From assembly GCF_019059575.1 (NCBI RefSeq), contig NW_024881864.1, forward strand, positions 444,001 to 508,000: 64,000 nucleotides of DNA, read 5' to 3'. The stretch comes from Amphibalanus amphitrite (lineage: Eukaryota; Arthropoda; Thecostraca; Balanomorpha; Balanidae). How positions within the stretch are numbered: position 1 is the first letter of the stretch; each line of letters starts with the position of its first letter. Below, one piece after another: positions 3,801 through 49,900 of the stretch. The translations under genes and the position numbers were made by a program. Under the pieces are notes generated by a model. That model saw nothing but the letters and a program-made list of their open reading frames with translations, did no database searches and was not told the DNA's origin.

Positions 3801-6800
3801 TGCGTGTCTTGATGATTAAACATCACATATTGACACCTTTTCGATTGTTCAAAAATACAAAAACGAGCCCATCTGGCAAGCTCTCACATGCAAATGTCAT
3901 TTAACTTGAATCCATTCCATTTGCTTTTATGATAAAATGGTCATCTTGGAATGCATATTAAAAGAGAACAAACCAAAATTCAGGCTGTATTTGATAAATT
4001 ACAACATAAGATAACGAACCTAATGGAAAATTCGGCAAAAAAAAAAACAAAAAAAAACACGCTAGGGGAAAAGTCACCGAGCAGAGGACGTGTCGCACCT
4101 GCCCGCCGACCCGGCCGGCCGCCCGGGGACCTGTACCGCTGACACCGCCCGTCGGGACTGTATAGGCCGAGAAACAGAAGCGGGCAGAGGTCGACCGAAA
4201 GAAGGCCGAGGTCCGCAAACGCCTGGAGGAGACCGCCGCCGGCAAGAAGGCCAAGAAGGGGTTCATGACACCGGAGAGAAAGAAGAAACTGCGGGTAGGA
4301 TATTCCACCGAACAATCTATTCATTATATTTTAATTTTTCTAACTGATCTTACTTTTATTTAGCTTTAGCCGTTTGCATTTTATAAACATGGCCGGAAAT
4401 ATTACCTCTCGCCGTATAAATGGGCTCTGAAAAAGCTGCGACAAAAACAAAGCTTATTTGTACAACTTTCCCAAAAATTCTGTCCACAGTTTCATGCTAA
4501 AATCCCCATTGCAATCCAGTGAAATTCCGGAAACTTCAGAATGGCTTCTAACTATCATCGTCTTTGCAGCATTAAATACAATTTCATATTTGCCTCGGCA
4601 TAGCGTGCTATTCGATCTCTAAAATGCAGACTGCTTTCAGAGGCTTAATACTTAGGGGATGTTTAATTTACATTTCACGTCTGGCCAATCCAGTTCCTTA
4701 TCACACATTTCTTTCAATCTTCTTACATATGTATTCGTGCATTGCAAGATTTAGCTCGTAAACATTATCTTCTTATGACAGTGAAAATATGTTTTGAAGT
4801 ACAATACATCGTAAGCCACCTTTCCTGCAAAGGTGAGAAACAACCCTCTTACGGCGAGGGCTAATATCGGTGTGTATACGATCAAAATACTACAGATAGA
4901 CTAGAACACTTTGTACAATAGGCTACAGACCAACAGAGGCTTGGCTTTGTAGAAACGGTAGAGGCGTCATTCGTAGTCTGGATACATAGTGAAATTTAGT
5001 ATTATCGGTAAAAGCTAAGAATAGCATGGCATTTCAGCAGTCAATGAAGCATTAGGTGAAGTCACATTGATTTCAATGCATATGTGTTATGTCTCGCGAG
5101 CCGCCGGTGTGGGCGGCCGACCCTGTGCAGAGACCCGACCGCTCCCCGCCGGTTCTAGCTACTTCTGAGGAAAAAGGCTGCTGAGGAGCTGAAAAAGGAA
5201 CAGGAGATCAAGGCCGAGGAGCGGCGGCGCATCATCATCGAGAGGTGCGGCCAGAAAAAGAACCTGGACGACGCCAATGAAGGTAGGTACCGGCCGCCCT
5301 TAGTGGGCCAGGCATCAGCACCTACCCAGTACCTATTAGCACGAAATACCGCTCTCTCAGAAAGGTCATGCAGTTCTTCTCTGTCCCAAACGTGCACTTT
5401 GCACTCTGCTTTAAAAAGGTTTGATTTGACTGCAGTCAGCTACATGTAGTTCAAGCATCTATGAGTTGAATGCTGCAAATATGTATGAGCTTATCTAATA
5501 TCTTAACCCGCGCCCCGTAGGGCTACCGGCGGACCCTACCACCCGTAGGGGGGGGGGGGGCCGTTTCGGCCCCCCCCCCTAAGATCTCGGAAAGTTACCG
5601 GCCGATTTTCAAAATTCAAACGGCGTTAGCCCCACCCGGGAACTACCTTGTGACCAAATTTCATTGACCTAGGTCAAACCGATGACGTCACAGGTCAGGT
5701 CAAAGGTCAGATTTTCACCGTTCACAGGCAATTCAAGAAATGTGCTGTGAAAGCGAGTAAATTGGTAATTTATTGAAAACCATCGATGGTAAATTGTTCG
5801 TCAAACACATACTTTGCTATCTGAGGTCACTGATACCAGGTCAGGTCACAGCGAGGTCAGGTCACCGGGGGTCACAATATGAATGTGTCGTGTGATACAT
5901 GTTTTATGGTCCATTTTACATGACAAATGCGATTATGTGGGTTAGGCAGCCTTTGGGGCCAGCCTAGGTCACGTTTTTGTGAAGGTCAGGTCAAGGTCAG
6001 GTCAAATTATGTCAAATTTCAAAGTTGATATTTTTGCATAAAATGGGTATCGATTCGATGCAGCTCGTCACGGGGAGTCTAATGGTGGTCTTCGTTTTGC
6101 TCTACGAGTTCTAGAATTGCCAAAATTTGAGTTTGAAAATTTGACGTCATCATTTTTGAACAGTTTTTTCGCTATAACTTGGCCAAAAAACGAGGCATCG
6201 ATCTGAAATTTGGTATGTAGATAGAAGACGGTAGGCACTATCACATATATTCCGTTTTTTTTCGAAACTCAAAAAACTTTTTGGATTTTTTGGCGAATAT
6301 ATCCAAAAAAATGCTTTTTTGATTTTTGGGGGTCAAAACTCAAAAATTTCAAAAATTCGAGATAGCAGTTTTGTAGCCCTGTCAATTCTACACCTTTTAT
6401 GTCTTGATCATTTTTCTGTATCTTCAAAGCTGTAGTCCTGACAGGTCTTCTCGCGAAGGTCTTTTTTCGGTCGAAAATGACAGAACATGACGTCACTCTG
6501 ACGTCATTTGTGGCCAACCTATCATAGCCTCTGGAAAATTTTTGGTCACAATGTGTAAAATTGATGCCCAGAGGGGTCCTGAAAGTTTGGTGGCGATATC
6601 TCCAGCCGTTTAGGAGATATCGACCGAAAAGGACAGGGGGGGGCCGTTTCGGCCCCCCCCCCCTACGGGGCGCGGGTTAATTGGAATCCAACGCAGCAAT
6701 CCAGACCGTTCAATTTTTAGCAAGAAACTGTAACACTGCTAAACCAATTGCGTTCCACTGCATGACCGATTTGGTTGCAGGTTAAACTGAAGGTGTAATT

Positions 6801-9800
6801 TTAACGGAAAATACAACTTCAATGCGAGGAATGAGCAGGAATAAAGCTGCACTGAACGTCATGCTATTAAAAACCATGAAGACTGATTATTCCATGATGT
6901 CCTACATTACAATCACAGTAGCTGGCATGAACCAAGTAGACTTGAGCTGACTTCAACCCGGAGTAGTATAAGCTCGAATTTCGAGTAGGTAGCGTTGTAA
7001 ATATTGACTCAGAACTTGTAAACCTATCATAGACGATCTCTAGCTGAAATCTATATAGTCGAATGACCGCAGAATCCATTTTAGCGAATGTAGTTGCCAG
7101 ATTGGGTACATTTTGTAGAGAGCACATTAGAGGCAGAGAGATTGGGTGCAGAGAGACTAGAGAGCGAGGCCAATCACAAGCGGAGCGTATCCTAGAACTT
7201 CTTAACTTAAAACGCGTACTCAAAACTTTTTTAACACGGTCCGCTGTTCTCTGCGCCTGATCTCTCTGCCCCCCCCCCCCCCGCCTCCCAATCGTGTCCC
7301 GCCGTAGCCCCTGCCTGGTCCGCCCGCCCCGCCGTGTCGTGCCCCTCTGACGTGGCGCTGCACGTGTCCTGTTCGGTCGGTAGCTGTGGTCACCCAGGTG
7401 TGCCAGGCGTACCAGCAGCGTATCGAGGCGCTCGAGAGCAAGAAGTGGGATCTCGAGCAGGAGGTGGCGGAGAAGGATCACCAGGTTTGTCTCCCCCACT
7501 AACCGGCCCCAGTAGACGGTAGATGTTTAACGGCACGGTGGCCAACTCGCAAAGGCCTTCTCAACTGCTAACGGATGAAGAGGTAAAATGTTCGGTCTTT
7601 ACGTTGGTTGTGTTTAAGAATATTAAAAGATCTTTGACGTTTCATACTTATTTCTTCCATTAACTTTGATTCTACGGTCTTTCTAAATCGAAACGAAACG
7701 TCTGTCTTGTGTTGTTTCACAATGGGTGGAGACTTCCATTTCGCGTCTAGCTAAACGCGTCTAAGTCTTAGACGCGTCTAGCTGGACGGCGGCTGCATCT
7801 ATTTGGCGACGGCTAAATTTAGACGCGTCTAGCTTGGAAGTCTCCGTCCAACAGTTAGACGACAAGTTAGACGTCAACTTGGACGTCTGCTCAGTTGGAC
7901 GCCAGTTGGACGCCAGTGGAAATCTCCAACCAATGTATATAGCCCCATCTCATCATTTGGGCGAGTTTGGCTTGTCTAACCCGGCTGCGGCGCTCCGTCA
8001 TCCCTGGGCGCCGCTGTGTCTCAGCTAATGGTCTGCTCTCTCCCCCTCTCTCCTTTCTCGTTCAGCGGAGCTACAGACCATTTGTTATGAGTATCACCAG
8101 CACATTACACGTGTCGAAACTGATAAGTACGACGCCGAGTTTTGGGTGAAAATGAAAGACTATCAGGTAAATTTACTAACACATGTCTATCAAAAACGCC
8201 ACGGAACAGTTCCGTATAATACTTATAATATTAACGGTTAACAAAGGCCTAACTGTAGATTCGATAACCAATTCACGAAGGGACGGAGGATGGAAAACCC
8301 AAAGTCAAGTTTACAAAATCTCACACACTGAGCGGCGAGCGCACCGCTCAGAAACTTTGAGTGGACGGCATTTAACACCCCTTTCCGCCTTTTTAGACGA
8401 TCTTATAGCCATATGCAAGGACTATCATGACCGTGTGTACCTGTGCGAGTCTCAAAAGTGGGACCTGGAGCACGAGGTGCTGCGACTCGGTGTGGAGGTC
8501 AGTGTGCGCCGCGCTCGACACCGCTATAGACACACCGTTAGACACCAGCTAGCTGTCGGCCCCCCGAGTCCGGCGCGCATGTATGAAGTGGCGTGTGATG
8601 ACCCGACCCCCGACCTGCCCGACCGCACCCAACCTCTCCGGCCGCTTCGCACCGCTTACTAGAGGCGCCCGCTGGCGTATAGTTGGCGCAGTAGCTGAAG
8701 ATGAAAATGACAGCACATTGCCGACTAATTCCCTATTGGAACCCTTTTTCCAATGACAGTACCTGTTGCTTCTGCCAAAATAATGTAAAGCTTTTGTAAA
8801 AATATTGGTTTATTGCTTTTCCCATCAAAAACAAGATGCTAAGCTATCCACGAACGTGTTCAATTTCCGGTCATTTTCATCTGGACTGGTAGCGACCCTT
8901 GACCCGCTGACCGGCCGCGAAATGTGACCCGCGGCTGGGTCAGTGTCGGCTCCTGCCCTGACCACCGTCCTCGTCCTTCCCCGGCCGGCGCGGCCGCCGC
9001 CGTCACCGCGCTTCATACATGGGCGGCCGGCGCGCCGGGCCGGCAGTGGCTCCCTCCTCCGTCCCCTGTCGGTGACCCCGGTGACCTCTGCGGGACACCG
9101 GTCCCTGCCGGTGACCCCAGTGACCTCTGCGGGACATCGGCCCCTGTCGGTGACCTCTGCGGGACACCGGCCCCTGTCGGTGACCTCGGAGGGACACCGC
9201 CCCCGCCCGCCGCCCCCATACCGGCCCCTCAGTGGCTGAGACTCCACGGCTGCCAGCCACGCAACGGGTCCTCCACGAGCATGCGCACGGTAGATACAAA
9301 ACAATTCGCATCCCTACAGAATAGCTATCTAGTTAGAGCTTTTACACACAAATCCTAGCTGATTTGTACTTAGAGCCAACAGTATAGTTATTAGTCCGGA
9401 CCGTTTTGGGCAAAACCTCCCCTAGTTGTATGCATAGTAGAGCTCCCAAAGAGTGCTAGCTCAGTTCGTCAGTCCGTCTGAATTTGATAGAGCTAGACGT
9501 CGAAATGTAGCAGAGCTTCATAGTTTGTCCTGTTGACATTGGGTGGGCGACTGATATCGTCTCAGAAGTTGGCACCAGCAACAGTTGGCGCATATTGGAC
9601 ACATGTCTAAATGCTCAGCACACCGGCTTCGGACAGCCTTCATATGTAGCCACGGCACTCTCTGTATAAGAGCTACCGGAGCTACCAATAAGTTAAATTA
9701 CACCTCGCATCATAACATAATCAACTTATCTACAGGGTGTCCGGAAAGTCCTGGCGCTTCTTTTGGACGCCGTGTAACGCGCGCTGTGATTATTGGACAT

Positions 9801-30120: not shown

Positions 30121-30187
30121 GTCATGTGAGCTCACAAAGTTCCAAAGTTGTGCCAGGCAACTTCATGAGATCACACTGAAGGAGCTC

Positions 30188-30416
30188 CAGCGAATTATTT
30201 TCAGCATGCCCAGCTTGAGTGTGCAAAATGTACACTGGACTGGACCACTGTAGTGTCTGAATGTGATGCACAAAACTGAACGTGACACACCAGCGACAAA
30301 TCCAGCGAATTATTTTCAGCATGCCCAGCTTGAGTGTGCAAAATGTACACTGGACTGGACCACTGTAGTGTCTGAACGTGATGCACAAAACTGAACGTGA
30401 CACACCAGCGACAAAA
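30188..30416. repeat. Tandem duplication, 114-bp unit
   Basis: Two nearly identical copies of ccagcgaattattttcagca... through acacaccagcgacaaa (30188-30300 and 30302-30416), differing by a base or so. A recent duplication in the outer element, just past the exon at 30460-30688 on the minus strand. Confidence 0.93.
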
Positions 30417-32237: not shown

Positions 32238-32369
32238 CTAGCTGGAGCTGCTGGTGGCGGGCTCGCCGGCCGGCTCCTGCTGACCGCCGCCGTTCACCTG
32301 GTACGGCGTACCCAGGCCGTACAGGTGGCCGCCGTACTTGGCGTCGTCAATGTTGTCCTCAAAGAACAT
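32238..32369 (-). CDS. CNOT7: CNOT7/8 last exon
   Basis: 132 nt after gccgtcag encode [20 protein letters not shown], a poorly conserved tail rich in Gly, Gln and Ser, and TAG. Phase 0. Confidence 0.95.
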   Translation of the reverse strand: MFFEDNIDDAKYGGHLYGLGTPYQVNGGGQQEPAGEPATSSSS

Positions 32370-35300
32370 CTGACGGCGCACGGAGGGAGGGAGAGGACAG
32401 TCAGCGCTCTGTAGTGGCGATTGAACGAGAGCGAGGCGCGCTGGGAGCGAAATGTAGCTGGAAAACATAAACTGACTTATTGAGTTACCTATGTAACACA
32501 TATACTAGGCGGCAAAGGATAAGCTATGTCCCGTTCCAAACTAGTAGTGTGTGCGACTGACCTCCCTCATTTTGAAGAAGGCGGCGCCGGTGAGCAGGCT
32601 GTCACTGCCGGCCTGGTGCTGAGGGCCGACCCGCTCCAGCTCCAACTGCTCCGCCAGCTGCGGCAGGAAAAACGCTGTCAGACTCACAAAGCAGGGGCGA
32701 GAGGGGTCGCTGTCATGCTCCTACACAGTCGGTGTGCCGCGTATATACACACGACAGGCTGGGTGTCGCCCATACCGCCGCCACAGTCCCACACAGCACT
32801 GTACGTACACTCAGTGCACTACGTACACGTCCGGCGACTAGCGAGAAGGAAATCTTAACCCTCGCATGTGTGCGGCGTTTTCCAGCTTCTAATGTGTAGG
32901 GGGGGGGGGTCGGTTGGACCCCCCCCTTGCCGTTTGGCCCCTGATCGAGCTAGAGCTTCGCGGAAAAAACGAGCGTGTTGCCCGTGACGAGAGGAAGCCG
33001 ATGATACCCAATTTTAAGGTCCTAGGTCATTGGTTGACCTTCCAGGTCAGGTCAATGACCCAAAGTCGGGAAAATCGGGACCTATTAGAAAGTCGTAAAG
33101 TGTGGCTGCTAAGGGGTTTTTCGGGGTGCTGATCACGAATATCGTGTTAGTTTTGATCACAGATGATGTCTTAAAGCATTTAGACCAGGTCGGGTCAGGT
33201 CAGGTCAGGTCAATCAGTAGGCGTCGTGACGGGTATTCGTAGTACGTGTCAACCGCCTCTGACAGCTTCGTAACATGTTACGAAGGCACCAAAACTACTT
33301 CGTAAGTGTTCAAATGGTTGCTAAATTCGAATTCAGCTCCAAAAACTAGCCTGGAAACATGTAAAACACGAAAAAGTGAACCGAGGTCACCCGAGGTCAC
33401 CAAAGGTCAATGACCTGACCTGACCTTCAGGTGACCTTGACACCCACCCTAATGCATGGGAGCAACATCAAATCACATGTTTGAACGTTTGAAACCACGA
33501 AAAGCTTGCAAACGCGCGGCTAATGCGAGCCGACGTACGCCGAATCGCGATTCCGGCCAAACATGGTCTCGGAAAAGAGGTCACAGGTCAAAGGTCATTT
33601 GGGTCAGGGTCATGAAATTTTCAGGGTAGGTGTCAAATTGATCAATGCGAGGGTATTGAAAGTTTCGTCGCGATCGGCCGCTTTTTACACGAGTTTACGC
33701 GAAAAACCATGGGGGGGGGGGTCCATCCGACCCCCCTACACATGCGAGGGTTAAGAATGTTCATTACGTCCACACAGCCGTGCCGAGCCAGCTCATAGTT
33801 TCAACACTCACCAAGAGGCCTATAGGTCACAGTCCATCATATAGCATTTACTGACGGAGAAGTAACCCACCTCCTGTAGACCGCCTTTGAGGTTTTTGCA
33901 CGACTTCATCAGATACTTGACGTCATACATTGTGGGAAAGTACATCCGGAGCAGCTCAAAGAATTCCGACTCTTCTTTGGGCAGGTTCTGGTTGGTCAGT
34001 ATCTTCAGAAGGTAGCCGAAGTCGTAACCGCTGAAATACACAGTCGTTCCCAGTTATTGTCAAGAGCGAATTCTACTATCACGCATAGTGGAGAAAAACA
34101 TTTATCATATATCCCGCATTTTTGCCAATCACGAGCCTATAGAAATGCGCACAACACCGGCAACGCTCTGAAATAAGATTTCATCTGATCAAAAGAAATA
34201 TCCCTTTCTCACACCAGTGCATCCACGTCCACCTGTGGAAACAGATCTCCACATCACTATCTATCAATTTTGGCGTTCGCATCGTTTCGGGACTGTCACG
34301 GCGAGACCACGTGACACCGGCGCTTAGAGAGCTGGGATGGCCCACAGTCGATGAGATGGTGCATGAGCGGGACATCGCTGCCATATGTCGCCTTCTTAAC
34401 CCTGCATGTGGGGCTGAGGCACTGACTGGGCAGCTGATCCACCGAAGCGATGTCTCGGGCCGCCAAACTCGAGCGGTGGCCAACGGCCTGCTACAGCTAC
34501 CGAGAGTGAGGACCGAGTTTGCGCGGCGCAGCTTTACGTATCGCGCGATTTCCACATGGAACAATAGGTGATTTATGGTCGTGTGTTGTGTAGTGTATAT
34601 ACTTTTATTTGTGTTTTTAGTGTTATAGCATTTTGTTTTTATCTCCTTTTATGCATGTTTACAATGGTGTGCTCAAGGTCGTTTACCGGTTGTCATGTAT
34701 TTTACCTTTTATCTTGTGTGATTGACGTGCATGCCACAAAATCCATGCCAGTGGAGGCATCTAATAAACTATCTATCACCTCAATGGACGAAGCTCCCCT
34801 CCAGTCTCCCTAGGTGGTTCGTCATTTTTTAGAATGGAGATGCTATTGCTGAGCATATTTATTAGTATGTATATACTATATAAGAAATATTTTTAAATGT
34901 AGCCTGATGCTCATCATATATTAGTTAAGTTTTAAGCGAAATAGACAAAGAGAATAATAGTTCGACCACGGGTCATCATCAGATTCGAATAGGAAAATCC
35001 AATGAATGATTTTCAATGAATGAATGAATGATTTCGAATGATTTTCCTATTCGAATCTGATGATGACCCGTGGTCGAAATATTATTCTCTTTGTCTATTT
35101 CGCTTAAAACTTAACTAATATATGATGGGCATCAGGCTACATTAAAAAATATTTCTTATATACATGTCTCCCTAGGTGAGCAGATCTCCAACTCATCTCA
35201 GTGTACGAACTACGAAGCTCCCCTCCAGTATCCCTAGGTGAACCGAGTTCCCCAGACCCCAGCTCACCTGTGGAACGAGATCCACTTGACGTCGTCCATG

Positions 35301-38300
35301 AGTACCACGCCCGAGGTGGTGATGAGCTCGGCAAACTCAAACGGCTCGATGCCCTCGTCGTCGTGCACCGGGAATTGGATGCCCGACTTTTGCAGCAGCT
35401 CTATGCTCTCCTGTGCGTACATGTCCTCGCTGGGAACGGCAGCGCCGAACGGGTCAGCGGCGGCGAATGGCGGGAGGGGCTGAGGTCATGGATGATTAAA
35501 GTGACTAAAGAGGTTTCAACGTCAGCATATCGTTAGGTAGTAGGTACCTTGAGTTTCTATACTCGGATACAATTAAAAACTATCATTTGCTCTAAGAAAA
35601 ACAAAACTAGAATAAAAAAGTATTTGAAGCTCTTATCGCTTCCAAACACACATCACGACATCCGATATTTATTCCTAAACTCCATTCATTCATCGATTCA
35701 TATACCTCATTCATTTATAGATTTATAATTGACTGGGGAAAATCGGTCAAGTTCATCTGATTTGCCTTTTCACGTTTAGTAATAATCTTGTCAGTTCGTC
35801 TACCACAGTGGATGTCGGTGACGTACACGAGGTTGAATTTGAAGTTGAACTGCCAGGTGGTGATCGGCTGCGGCATGCGGCCCTGCTCGTCGAAGAAGGT
35901 GACGCCCAGCTGGATCATCTTCAGGTGGTCGACGTTACAGCGCCGCAGCTGGTACTCGTAGTCCTGCGCACTGCGGAACTCGCCTATCGGCCGCGCCACC
36001 ACACCGGGGAACTCCGTGTCCTGACGGGAGGGGGGGGGGGGGGCTCACAGTCGGCCGCGCCACCACACCGGGGAACTCCGTGTCCTGACGGTAGGGGGGG
36101 GGGGGGCTCACACTCGGCCGCGCCACCACACCGGGGAACTCGGTGTCCTGACGGGGAGGTAAGGAGGGGGGGGGGGGCTCACACTCGGCCGCGCCACCAC
36201 ACCGGGGAACTCCGTGTCCTGACGGGGAGGTAAGGGGGGGGGGGGGCTCACACTCGGCCGCGCCACCACACCGGGGAACTCCGTGTCCTGACGGGAGGGG
36301 GGGGGGGCTCACACTCGGCCGCGCCACCACACCGGGGAACTCCGTGTCCTGACGGGAGGGGGGGGGGGGCTCACACTCGGCCGCGCCACCACACCGGGGA
36401 ACTCCGTGTCCTGACGGGAGGGGGGGGGGGCTCACAGTCGGCCGCGCCACCACACCGGGGAACTCCGTGTCCTGACGGGAGGGGGGGGGGGGCTCACACT
36501 CGGCCGCGCCACCACGCCGGGGAACTCCGTGTCCTGACGGGGAGGGGGGAGGGGGGGGGGCTCACACTCGGCCGCGCCACCACACCGGGGAACTCCGTGT
36601 CCTGACGGGGAGGTAAGGGGGGGGGGGGCTCACACTCGGCCGCGCCACCACACCGGGGAACTCCGTGTCCTGACGGGGAGGTAAGGGGGGGGGGGCTCAC
36701 ACTCGGCCGCGCCACCACACCGGGGAACTCCGTGTCCTGACGGGAGGGGGGGGGGGCTCACACTCGGCCGCGCCACCACACCGGGGAACTCCGTGTCCTG
36801 ACGGGGAGGTAAGGGGGGGGGGGGGCTCACACTCGGCCGCGCCACCACACCGGGGAACTCCGTGTCCTGACGGGGAGGTAAGGGGGGGGGCTCACACTCG
36901 GCCGCGCCACCACACCGGGGAACTCCGTGTCCTGACGGGAGGGGGGGGGGGGGGCTCACACTCGGGGCCGCGCCACCACACCGGGGAACTCGGTGTCCTG
37001 ACGGGGAAAGAGGAACTCGAGACTCAGGGTGGGACCCACGGCACGGAGCGGCCACTCCACTGACCCTATAACGTCTGAAATGTTCAAGGTGAAGGCAGCG
37101 TATTTATTTAACCCTCTAATGCCCACACATAGTTCCACGGTTCCTAAAATTAGCACCTCATGACCTATGATTCATTTTGGGTCCCTTGTTCGAAATCTGA
37201 AGTCAAAAAATTTTTCGCAGTTCAAATTTCGGAAATAATTTGTGTATCAAATATGATACATTGGGCATTCCACTTGGTAATTTTTAGTGGTATCAGACCA
37301 CACAGAAGGAAGTGAAGACATAGATGAGAAGATATATGTTTTGAAAAATTTCAGAGATAAAAGCGGCAGTTAAAATGTGTAAAATGCAAACAAGAAATCC
37401 TTTACTGTGCGCCACTTATCAGAACATTTTCTTAATATTTCATTGGCATCCTACTTGTATCAAAATGCCCTTTCAGTCGGTACTAAGGGAACAACGCTAA
37501 TCATAGGCATCTTTTTACGAGTGCCTTCTATTCCTTTAATTTCCACGATACAGCGCGTTGCACTTGTGCATTTTTTCATAATTCAGACATGTGGGCCATG
37601 CTTCTCAAACGTGCATTATACATACTTGATACAAAAATGAAGACATTACGGTTGGTCGGTAGATGGTCGAAGTGAAGCAGTTCTGATGCAAAATGCTGGA
37701 CAGCCTGCCGACGGACCGGAATCAATGCCAAAGACGAATGTTGGTTTATCTTCACGATAGCCGGACAATCCCTGGTGACTGAAACTCTCAGCCTGTGAAT
37801 CGTCAGTTAGCACTTTGACTGGTCGTGCGGTCCTCATGTCATCGGCGTCAGTACAACAGCCGCGCACTGACCAGTGACCAGTGCAGTAACCGTTGTACGT
37901 GTCAGACAACAAAGGTACAGGTAACTGTGTACCGATCGGCAGGAACTTGCACAATGTTCATTGACCTCATATAAAGGTGAGCGTACGCAATGCCGCACTT
38001 TAACTTGTATTCTTATGGTCAGTGTCCATGTTTTAGTATAAATCCTATTTGTTCAGTGGCAATCAGCTACCATACTTGGCGGCATATGTCAATATACGAG
38101 TATGACAACAAATGACATACCTGGCAGTAAAAGTGTTTGCCAGGTGTCAGGCACCTGCTGGATCCTGGCAGCAGTGCATGGTTGCCTACTTCTTGGATAC
38201 GTAAATCAAAGGAACCACGTCCTTCGGTCTTGACGTCTGTCTTCATGGCGAGTCCGTTTAGCCAGCTTCCTCTGACGATGACGGTGTAGTTTTCCACTCC

Positions 38301-39801: not shown

Positions 39802-40900
39802 CTGGAGGTACACACAGGCGGTGACTGGTGGGGCAGGACGGCAGCGAGAGACCAGATGGTGGGGATCACTGACCCGACTAAAACGTGACAATATCGGTAG
39901 TGGCCGGAACGCGGGCACAGTTTTTGTTCAGGAAACTTGCGATGCTATTTTCAACATCATGGTCACAACCTACCTGCCAGCACAGCAAATATCAACCTAC
40001 CTACTGATTCAATTACTGGAGGAAAAAAAACTTTTGAAAATGTCTCAGTACCTCATCAAGGCGTTAGTTATTTTGTAGTCATTAAAATAGCAGCAAGAAT
40101 TATCACAGGTAAAGCAAGCATCTTTTCATCCATGCTTTTCCATTCAAACAGTATAGTGCAATCATTCCTCACCATTTCCATTTTGCATGGTCATCTCAAT
40201 CTAATCCAGAAGTAACCTGAAAAACAGAAATGTCAAGAATTCATAGTGATATTGTAAATGCACATTGCAAATGTATATGTAAAGATATGTTTATATCTTT
40301 GAATGTCAAACCACAGTCTAAATGTATGCTTGCATGATAGCTTTCAGCCTCCACAAAAACAAATAATATGAACATCACCATGTATACTCTCACATAACTA
40401 GACCTAATCCAACATATCTCAACATCCGATTTATATTCTTGTTATGTATTATTACTGCCAAGGTTAGTTCTAGCATTGAAGAACTGGCATGTCTTGCGTT
40501 TCCAGGTTCCTCTTCTCCCTCCCTACACCTGTCCTGTAAGGCTGGGAAGTGGAGGAACCCCATAAGGTGAGCAAGGTGAGTAAACTTCGGCATTTCTACT
40601 AGAGTACAGAGTTGTTTTTAAATAATGTGAGCCAAATTGATCATTATCCCCAGTATGGAAGCCTCAGGAATGTTCTGACATCACATAGTAAGCTTCTTGT
40701 TTGCCTCTGATATCACAGTTTAATTTCTTTAGCGCTGAAGAAGTTGGTTATCACCCTGAAGTGTCCCTGACTGAAAGATACATTGTCCTGGGAATTGTGG
40801 ATCTTGTTTGAAGTGGGCTAGTGGGGATTTCCAGCCTGGCTGATGTGGGCTGGTGCAGCTTTGTTATCCAGACTAGTGGTTGGTGTGGCTTGTAACTTCA
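39802..40900. other. AT-rich DNA upstream of CNOT7/8 exon
   Basis: No first CNOT7/8 exon or promoter could be recognised. Nothing else was identified. Confidence 0.45.
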
Positions 40901-46999: not shown

Positions 47000-49900
47000 G
47001 TGAGTGGGGCGACTCCTAAAATGAATGATCGATAGTAGTTTACTTGTAGTTTTTAATTTTACTTTGTTCGTGTTGTATTATGTTGATTTTGGGCTCTCAG
47101 TTTTTGTTTCGAGTGAAGCATGATTACTTTCAGATACGTTACTTTAGTTATGGTGTCGGTAAGTTTGCCATCATTCGTTTTTGGTGTTGGATGGTTGTGA
47201 ACGTCTCCAGTGACCTGATCGTCTTTCACTGCCCACAGGTTCATTCGTCAGGCGATAGCACTGATAGCGGCCCAGGAGAAGAAGGAGCAGGGTGGCACCG
47301 GTCGACGGGGGCGGCCGCGCGGGTCGCGGGGCGGCGCGGCCGACTCCCCGACTCCCGACCACTCGCCCTCGCCCGCCGCTGCCGAGCCGCCGCCCAGCTC
47401 CGCTAAAAAGGCTGCGAGGAAGGCCTCGCCGGCGACACCTGCCCCAGTCGCCACTGCTAAGGCTACAAAGGCGTCCAAAAAGACGCCCGTCCCATCCAAG
47501 GCAGCGCTCAAGAACTCAGACTCTTCATCCTCAAAGTCGTCACAAAAGTCTCCTTCATCTGCTAGATCATTAGACAAACCCTCATCTTCCACAAAATCAT
47601 CTGAAAAGACGCCATCATCATCAAAATCATCACAAAAGACTCCCGCCACCAAGGCGTCCCGGAAGGCGTCCCCGGCGTCTGCCGGCGGCCGCTCGTCCCC
47701 GGTGGGCAGCGTCTCGTCTCCGCGGCGCTCGGCCTCGCCGGCTGCCGGCGGCGGCAGCGCGCCGCGGCGGCCCGGCCGGCCCAGGAAGTCGGCTCACCTC
47801 TCTGACGAGGACGAGTACACGCCGTCGGGAGGCCGGAAGAAGGCGGCGGCCGGGACCCCGCGACCGGCCGGCCGGCGCGCCAGCGCCGCTGACGACGAGC
47901 CCGATCGGAAGGCACCGCCGCTCAACGGATCGGCCAACAAGATACGCAGCTCGGCAATGTGAGTAAAGAATGGGGTAGATTTCTTCCTTCCATTTGGGTG
48001 CGGTTTGGTAAGCAAGGATCTGCGGGCATTGTTACTGCAGTGCTTTGATTGGGCTAGTTAACTAACAAGGAATGTTGGCAGGACTACCTATGATTAAATA
48101 TACATATGGCATGCAGTGAAGTTCTAGTGCTGTCCTGTTAAGTTCGTCAGCACGATGTTTATGTCTGCGCTCAAACCCCACGCTCTAGTACCCTGCGCTG
48201 CCTGCTCACCCTCCGCCCTCCATTTCGTCCGCAGAGTGTTACAGACAGACGAGGAGCTGCGCGTGGGCATGTACAAGGTGCTGGAGGCGGTCAAAGCGCA
48301 CGAGGAGGCCTGGCCGTTCCAGGACCCGGTCGAGGAGGAGTACGCGCCTAATTACTACGCCGTCATCCGCCGGCCGATGGACCTAAACAAGCTGGAGAGC
48401 AGGCTGGATGCCGGTGTGTACCAGACCAGGCAGCAGTTCGAGGCCGACTTCAAACTGATTGTCGACAACTGCAAACTCTACAACGGCCTGGAGAACGGTG
48501 AGACCGAGGATGTCGGCGGAGGGCGGGACGGGCTTCCGTCGGAGGTCAATGAAAAGGTTCTGACACTCTCCACCTTGGGGATATGTTCAACGTCGAAATT
48601 ATGAATGTCGAAATCGAAATTAAGCTCATCTCTTTATTTCAATTCAGCAATATTCATGTCAAGATTTATTACTTTGTACCGTTTTCTGCTCGCTAATTGT
48701 CCAATTGTCTGCCTACCATTGACGCCGCTGGTTTGCATGCATCATTTCAGAGTACACGGAGATGGTGATGAACATCGAGGCGGCGTTCCACAAGGCGTGC
48801 CACAAGTTCCTTGACACGGGCGACGACGACGAGGAGGAGATTCTGATCGACGTGTCGCAGGTGACGCCCGGCTCGGCGCGCCGGTCGGCCGCCCGCCCCG
48901 CCGCCGGCTCGGCAGGGTCCACCGGGCGGCGGCGCGGCCGGGGCGCCAAGGCCGCCGCGACCGGCAGGGGTCGCAAAAAGTCCGCCGCGGCCGCCGAGAT
49001 CGACTACAGTGACGACGAGCTGCTGGCCTCGCCCAGGTCGAAGCCGCCCTCCAAGGAGGACACGGAGAAGATGTTCGATAACCTGCTGAAGACGCCGCCG
49101 TCGCCGGTCAAGTCCCCTCCGCCGGCGGGGGCGCGGTCCGCCGCGCGGGCCCCCGAGACCGTGATCGGCCCCGTGAAGGCGATCCCGAGCGGTCGCGGCC
49201 GGCGGCGGCAGCTGGCCAGGAAGCCGCCCCGGCAGCTGCCGCCGCCGCCGCCGCCGCGGCCCGCCAGTCAGGCCTCCGAGGGCGACGCGTACACGTTCAG
49301 AGAGGAGTCGGAGGAGGAGCCGACGGTACGCCGGCCGCCGCGACGCCCGCTGAGGGCCTCGCCGCCGCCGCGCACACCGCCGCCCACCGCCCCCGCCCCC
49401 GCCCCCGCCCCCGCCCCGGCCGTGTCAGCGTCCTCTGACGAGAGCGACGGCGGCTCCCCGAAAAAGGCCATCGCCCAGGGCCGGATATTCGCGGCCAAGA
49501 TGCGGCGCCGGCGGCTGGCGGCGGCCGAGAGGGAGGAGCGGAACTCGTCCCGCGAGGCCGCCGACAGGGAGTCGGAGAAAACCGCCGAGGAGTCCGGCTC
49601 CGGCGCCGAGCGGCCCGACCGCGAGCTCAGGAGGAAGAGCGAAAAGAGGTCGCGGACGGACAGCAGGGAGAAGAAGAGCAGCAAGAAGAAGAAACGGAAA
49701 CGGCGAGAGCGGGAGAGGCGGGAGAGTGAGCGGCGCGCGGCCGACTCGGCCAAGGTGAGCCGCGGCTGCTGCGGATGGGGCTGAATCTGTCAGAATGAAG
49801 CAATTCTGACCGCTCTAGATTGAATGTTATTTGAATTACGATTTATGGTTTTGATCTATTTTGAGTTAAGTTATCATCCTAGGATTGAAAGTTACAGTAG

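Follow-up and report, generated by a model that had tools for sequence, protein, structure and literature searches.

The window analysed here is a 64,000-nucleotide stretch of the Amphibalanus amphitrite genome whose minus strand carries an intact CNOT7-like gene with an array of short repeats between intron 1 and exon 2. The gene has seven coding exons in total; the exon with the start codon is counted separately, so that "exon 1" below is the second coding exon. Two references are used throughout: P0001, an A. amphitrite protein named CCR4-NOT transcription complex subunit 7-like, and C1725, a contig of the same assembly on which the locus is found a second time in collinear form, there with a single exon 2 and zero array units. 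The features, in window coordinates, are as follows.

40173..40194, minus strand: first coding exon, with the start codon (MTMQNGN) and donor GTGAGG; from comparison with P0001
39608..39801, minus strand: exon 1, the second coding exon, ending ...YKYVAM, donor GTGAGT; from comparison with P0001
37108..39416, no strand given: transposable element of about 2.3 kb in intron 1 of the window copy, with TTAA at each end (CCCTCTAGTGCCC / GGGCATTAGAGGG)
36021..36997, minus strand: array comprising 15 extra units, each a repeat of the first part of exon 2 and then an intron end with a C tract; from core matches
36960..36997, minus strand: unit 1, the 5'-most, with a 38-nt, out-of-frame exon-like piece (CGGCCCCGAGT); from core matches
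36049..36931, minus strand: units 2-15, with exon-like 36-nt in-frame pieces and GTGAGC after each; from core matches
35827..36020, minus strand: true exon 2, 194 nt, ending ...FNLV, donor GTACGT; single, and unchanged in C1725
35268..35429, minus strand: exon 3; from reading of the window exons
33871..34030, minus strand: exon 4; from reading of the window exons
32562..32657, minus strand: exon 5; from reading of the window exons
32238..32369, minus strand: exon 6, including the stop codon; from reading of the window exons
32599..36020, no strand given: 3.4-kb tract almost the same as in C1725 (2 substitutions, 3 homopolymer indels); from comparison of the copies

The seven coding exons of the window give a complete protein of 319 amino acids that differs at one residue from P0001; the contig with the P0001 annotation has 118853 bases, the same size as the array-free C1725. 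Similarity to CNOT7 extends over the full length of the protein: the PDB entry 4gmj_B, which we take to be human CNOT7, matches with an E value of 2.6e-133 (query residues 8-269 of 282). Together with the name of P0001, this match bears out the assignment to CNOT7/8 made in the original prediction, and judged by its sequence the gene is a member of the CNOT7/CNOT8 (CAF1) deadenylases. The window gene was recovered by protein search, which also found an A. amphitrite paralogue, P0002, that is 90% identical; P0002 is listed on a 1.45-Mb contig, and the last exons of its gene, the only ones located, lie at the end of contig C681 and the start of contig C1225, at contig ends in both cases. A search of the genome with the Pfam CAF1 profile produced 16 match rows with neither the window gene nor C1725 among them, and the open reading frames at these matches presumably belong to PARN- or TOE1-like proteins. 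A guessed coding pattern produced 7 matches, all unrelated, against 8 for its control pattern.

The array directly abuts the start of exon 2 (36020), and the 16 matches to CAG plus the core correspond to the 15 extra units and the true exon 2. Each unit had been described as a C tract, an acceptor, exactly 36 in-frame nucleotides and a GTGAGC donor. This anatomy holds for 14 of the 15 units (units 2-15), which are preceded by a C-tract spacer with the acceptor CGTCAG and of which 12 share one 12-residue reading and 2 have another. It does not hold for unit 1, where the exon-like piece has 38 nt and is out of frame and where an ordinary mixed pyrimidine tract (TTCCTCTTTCCCC), presumed to be the ancestral intron-1 acceptor, takes the place of the C tract. 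The CAG acceptor and the predicted GTGAGC are present in every unit, unit 1 included. The C tract that follows GTGAGC ranges from C8 to C13 (C9-C14 with the last C of GTGAGC included), although exact lengths may be sequencing-consensus errors. The units are 61-71 bp long and vary by point changes and by several spacer types; substitutions between them are so few that the preservation of GTGAGC in 15/15 units says nothing on selection.

Two familiar arrangements that the array might be taken for do not describe it. A tandem exon duplication would comprise the whole exon with both splice sites, whereas each unit repeats the first 32-34 of the 194 nt of exon 2. A cluster of micro-exons would have spliceable introns between its units, and here the gap from a donor to the next acceptor is 25-35 nt, which agrees with the expectation that adjacent units are not usable together. 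The 32-nt core, searched with up to 3 mismatches, occurs in at least 17 places in the 807.55-Mb assembly (genome-wide core counts being lower bounds), 16 of them at the array locus and 1 on C1725, while the reversed control pattern has 0 matches on either strand of the same assembly; the array is thus not a product of chance. A dispersed-repeat origin was considered and rejected since the core was found only at these two loci. Elsewhere in the window, at 30186-30415, lie two 115-bp tandem copies that are 99% alike and apparently non-coding.

The copy on C1725 matches the window copy of exon 2 at 194/194 nt. In the region of exon 1, 423 of 446 aligned bases are identical (92% by BLAST, gaps counted), and the collinearity continues further upstream: about 11 kb from exon 2, a 2.56-kb stretch with a bromodomain gene aligns at 92% along 2547 of the 2561 query bases. 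The gene at window 47220-49780 is, we assume, bromodomain-like; the contig pair C1411/C1380 carries weaker relatives, which may reflect a duplicate. The collinearity leads us to regard C1725 as the other allele; a recent duplication is the alternative. Further contig pairs of this sort are found in the assembly, and excerpts of a report on another A. amphitrite draft (PMC8270832) speak of high heterozygosity and of contigs that may in part be allelic. With 16 cores in one assembled copy and 1 in the other, the predicted variation in copy number is present.

Both copies also carry insertions in intron 1. The 2.3-kb element of the window copy has inverted ends (CCCTCTAGTGCCC), and the corresponding site of C1725 is a single TTAA; at least 47 match rows, its own included, were obtained for this element in the genome at 89-100% identity (40 of 163 candidates scored). 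In C1725, a 4.9-kb insertion lies 27 nt before the acceptor of exon 2 (L033, about 4458-9340) with a 13-bp target-site duplication, AGTATGAGTTCCT, that is common to both flanks (CCGAGTATGAGTTCCT on the left, AGTATGAGTTCCTCCACTCCCCGCCAG and then GACACGG on the right). A long open frame that looks like a reverse transcriptase runs antisense to the CNOT7-like gene within this insertion, which is presumably of the LINE-like type.

The array-free copy offers a view of how the array may have started. With the insertion discounted, the intron end of C1725 reads CCGAGTATGAGTTCCT...ACTCCCCGCCAG, with 30 nt from CCGA to the exon, and exon 2 has 30 nt and then CCGATAGG. The junction within the unit, GCGCGG-CCGA-GTGTGAG, passes from exon to intron at the common CCGA. 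Comparison of the two copies strongly suggests that, as a first step, 60 bp made up of the final 30 nt of intron 1 and the opening 30 nt of exon 2 were duplicated in tandem, the breakpoints lying at the 4-bp microhomology CCGA. The 11-mer CCGAGTGTGAG agrees with the C1725 intron at 10 of 11 bases at the place that such an origin would require (30 nt before the acceptor, insertion discounted); a match of at least 10/11 anywhere in 302 bp arose in 84 of 20000 Markov shuffles. The predicted unit size is 60 bp, and the shortest observed units have 61-62 bp. The window copy's own flank of unit 1, CCTGAGTCTCGAGTTCC, which is presumably pre-duplication sequence, resembles the unit less than the C1725 flank does, so the duplicated sequence was closer to C1725 at that spot.

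A unit duplicated in this way would contain the acceptor together with the start of exon 2 and the intron piece GAGTATGAG, the last of which would have become the donor-like GAGTGTGAGC. The donor-like GTGAGC is thus most likely the old intron piece (GAGTATGAG) altered by two substitutions, A to G and T to C. The original prediction had treated this motif as the mark of a micro-exon, a role that it loses here because the motif is explained by intron sequence within the duplication. The variation among units points to slippage or unequal exchange as a second step that would have raised the number of extra units to 15 and lengthened the C tract. The 3.4-kb tract that is nearly identical between the copies stops exactly at the array, and its surroundings diverge by about 5-10%: identity is 90% just downstream, where 449 of 498 aligned bases agree from 31740 on, and 95% upstream. 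This tract may reflect allelic conversion beside the minisatellite or a haplotype switch in the assembly.

What the splicing machinery would make of 15 additional acceptors can be approached by considering the products. If a decoy served as alternative acceptor and the array stayed in the transcript, a premature stop would follow in 15/15 cases; for unit 1, the first acceptor of the series, the stop comes after 13 codons. If a single unit were included as a cassette, the frame would be kept for 14/15 units. The possible introns from a unit to exon 2 are 91-939 nt long for units 1-14 and 28 nt for unit 15, and those between units that skip one are 87-104 nt. On vertebrate frequencies, the decoy acceptors score 4.78-7.07, the true acceptor 6.41, that of C1725 5.13 and the gene's four other scored acceptors -5.82 to 3.01. 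The decoy donors score 1.33, while four true donors reach 3.56-7.23 and the donor of exon 2 has -0.45; these scores are rough, come from vertebrate rather than barnacle frequencies and rate several true sites poorly. Since decoy and true acceptors score alike, acceptor strength cannot explain a choice of the last acceptor. We infer that exon 1 is normally joined to this last acceptor (36020) through exon definition: only the last acceptor would lead into an exon of ordinary size, whereas each decoy has a weak donor 36-38 nt downstream and would form an exon too small for ordinary exon definition. The array would then leave with intron 1, and the effect on the protein would be small or nil.

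We consider it likely that the array is a minisatellite that caught a splice junction, of the kind called "mirage" in amphioxus, and that it is normally spliced out with intron 1; the array itself is probably inert. Beside a splice-site lottery, which stays a conjecture, the original prediction had allowed for an inert minisatellite including the junction as its plain alternative, and this alternative is now the best-supported reading. It has to be weighed against a splicing decoy, in which some transcripts take a decoy acceptor, run into a stop and decay, so that the deadenylase dose follows the length of the array. The stop behind every one of the 15 decoy acceptors, their vertebrate-based scores similar to that of the true one, the absence of the array from the other assembled copy and the paralogue P0002, which at 90% identity could buffer a loss, speak for such a decoy. 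Comparable amphioxus arrays are, however, reported without splicing disturbance in the excerpted texts of PMC3087553 and PMC3902484, and there is no sign of selection for the array, and we regard this role as unlikely. Somewhat less likely still is a heritable, length-tunable brake made by a young splice-junction minisatellite, where each unit would be an equally strong decoy ending in a stop, the allelic array length would set the output of the CNOT7-like gene and conversion at the edge would reshuffle it.

It is also conceivable, though quite improbable, that one unit or several non-adjacent units are included as a 36-nt micro-exon, with the remaining array serving as a new intron and 12 residues added that repeat the catalytic D and E. 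The frame is kept in 14/15 single inclusions, the intron sizes (91-939 nt between exon 2 and units 1-14, 87-104 nt with one unit skipped) would permit it, and an intron of the potato RdRp gene was gained through a tandem duplication across the boundary of intron 1 and exon 2 (PMC4974935, in excerpt); this gain takes some weight from the inert mirage and lends it to the micro-exon. On the other side, the decoy donors are weak (1.33 against 3.56-7.23 for 4/5 scored true donors, with -0.45 for the exon-2 donor), the intron after unit 15 would have only 28 nt, exon definition is poor at a size of 36 nt and the fold would probably suffer from 12 repeated residues beside the catalytic strand. Moreover, no form with the insert stood out among the best 120 of 7752 proteins, whose clustering at 90% could hide one, and P0001 and P0002, the two of these entries that are named for A. 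amphitrite, are without it. A designed array of micro-exons was rejected, as the donor motif is duplicated intron and the gaps are too short. An assembly artefact is very improbable. C-rich repeats are prone to error, a published A. amphitrite draft, possibly another assembly, came from two pooled individuals according to excerpts of PMC8270832, and one amphioxus mirage was apparently misassembled in a draft (PMC3087553, in part); against this, the units are set apart by point changes and by spacers of several types, the array of less than 1 kb fits one long read and the junction of the units makes mechanistic sense. The mirage reading, in which the array is removed with intron 1, is the one followed below.

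The barnacle locus, which has an array-free counterpart within one assembly, shows a possible start of such an array: 60 bp duplicated at a microhomology of 4 bp. The locus further provides a natural test of a spliceosome facing 15 decoy acceptors of similar strength, which could be followed through allelic RNA in one animal. If the brake were true, allelic array length would set the amount of a core mRNA-decay enzyme that is made.

Multiplied splice sites have precedents. Turri et al. (1995) reportedly describe a human minisatellite that gives an interferon-induced transcript multiple splice donors. Judged by the title of that work, splice sites of one kind are multiplied inside a gene in both cases, but the human minisatellite supplies donors, whereas the repeated, potentially functional site in the barnacle is the acceptor. 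The human gene is said to be 6-16/IFI6. The minisatellite of PMC3039753 was dropped as a parallel because, in the excerpts of that paper, it concerns a transcription start and not a repeated splice boundary. In a literature search that mostly covered sources outside the subscription literature, mirage-type arrays were recognised only in amphioxus and a single boundary duplication in potato. The original prediction knew of no described case, a claim overtaken by these two (PMC3087553, PMC3902484 and PMC4974935, each as excerpted). In the potato RdRp gene, one tandem duplication across the boundary of intron 1 and exon 2 produced a new intron, so copies of a boundary are not always ignored by splicing. 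The same type of boundary was duplicated there as in the barnacle, with splice signals from the parental junction; however, a single duplication gave potato a new intron, while the many barnacle copies, with neighbour gaps of 25-35 nt, offer a candidate intron at most (PMC4974935, in excerpt).

The amphioxus mirages are the closest relatives. In the excerpts of PMC3087553, they are minisatellite-like duplications of intron-exon boundaries with many copies carrying AG/GT signals, and they occur in Adh3, in the globins BflGb6 and BflGb9 and in troponin C, with similar repeats in PGBD5 (PMC3902484, likewise in part). Their units measure 10-72 bp in Adh3 and 150-160 bp in the globins; the BflGb6 mirage combines the 3' end of an intron with the 5' part of the next exon and has 6 units in one haplotype and 3 in another (PMC3087553, excerpted). 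Despite the mirages, splicing seems to be regular, to judge from Adh3 data and globin RT-PCR (PMC3087553, same excerpts), and the repeats of Adh, troponin C and PGBD5 are said, in the excerpt of PMC3902484, to yield no aberrant mRNA or to leave splicing without interference. The barnacle units likewise cross an intron-exon boundary, carry AG/GT and differ in number between collinear copies, which by collinearity would be alleles; in its sequence the array has the structural features of a mirage, and this kind of structure is already known. The differences are that the barnacle is an arthropod and amphioxus a cephalochordate, and that the barnacle has 15 extra units in one copy against none in the other, long C tracts and a birth by duplication at a 4-bp microhomology that can be inferred from the other copy.
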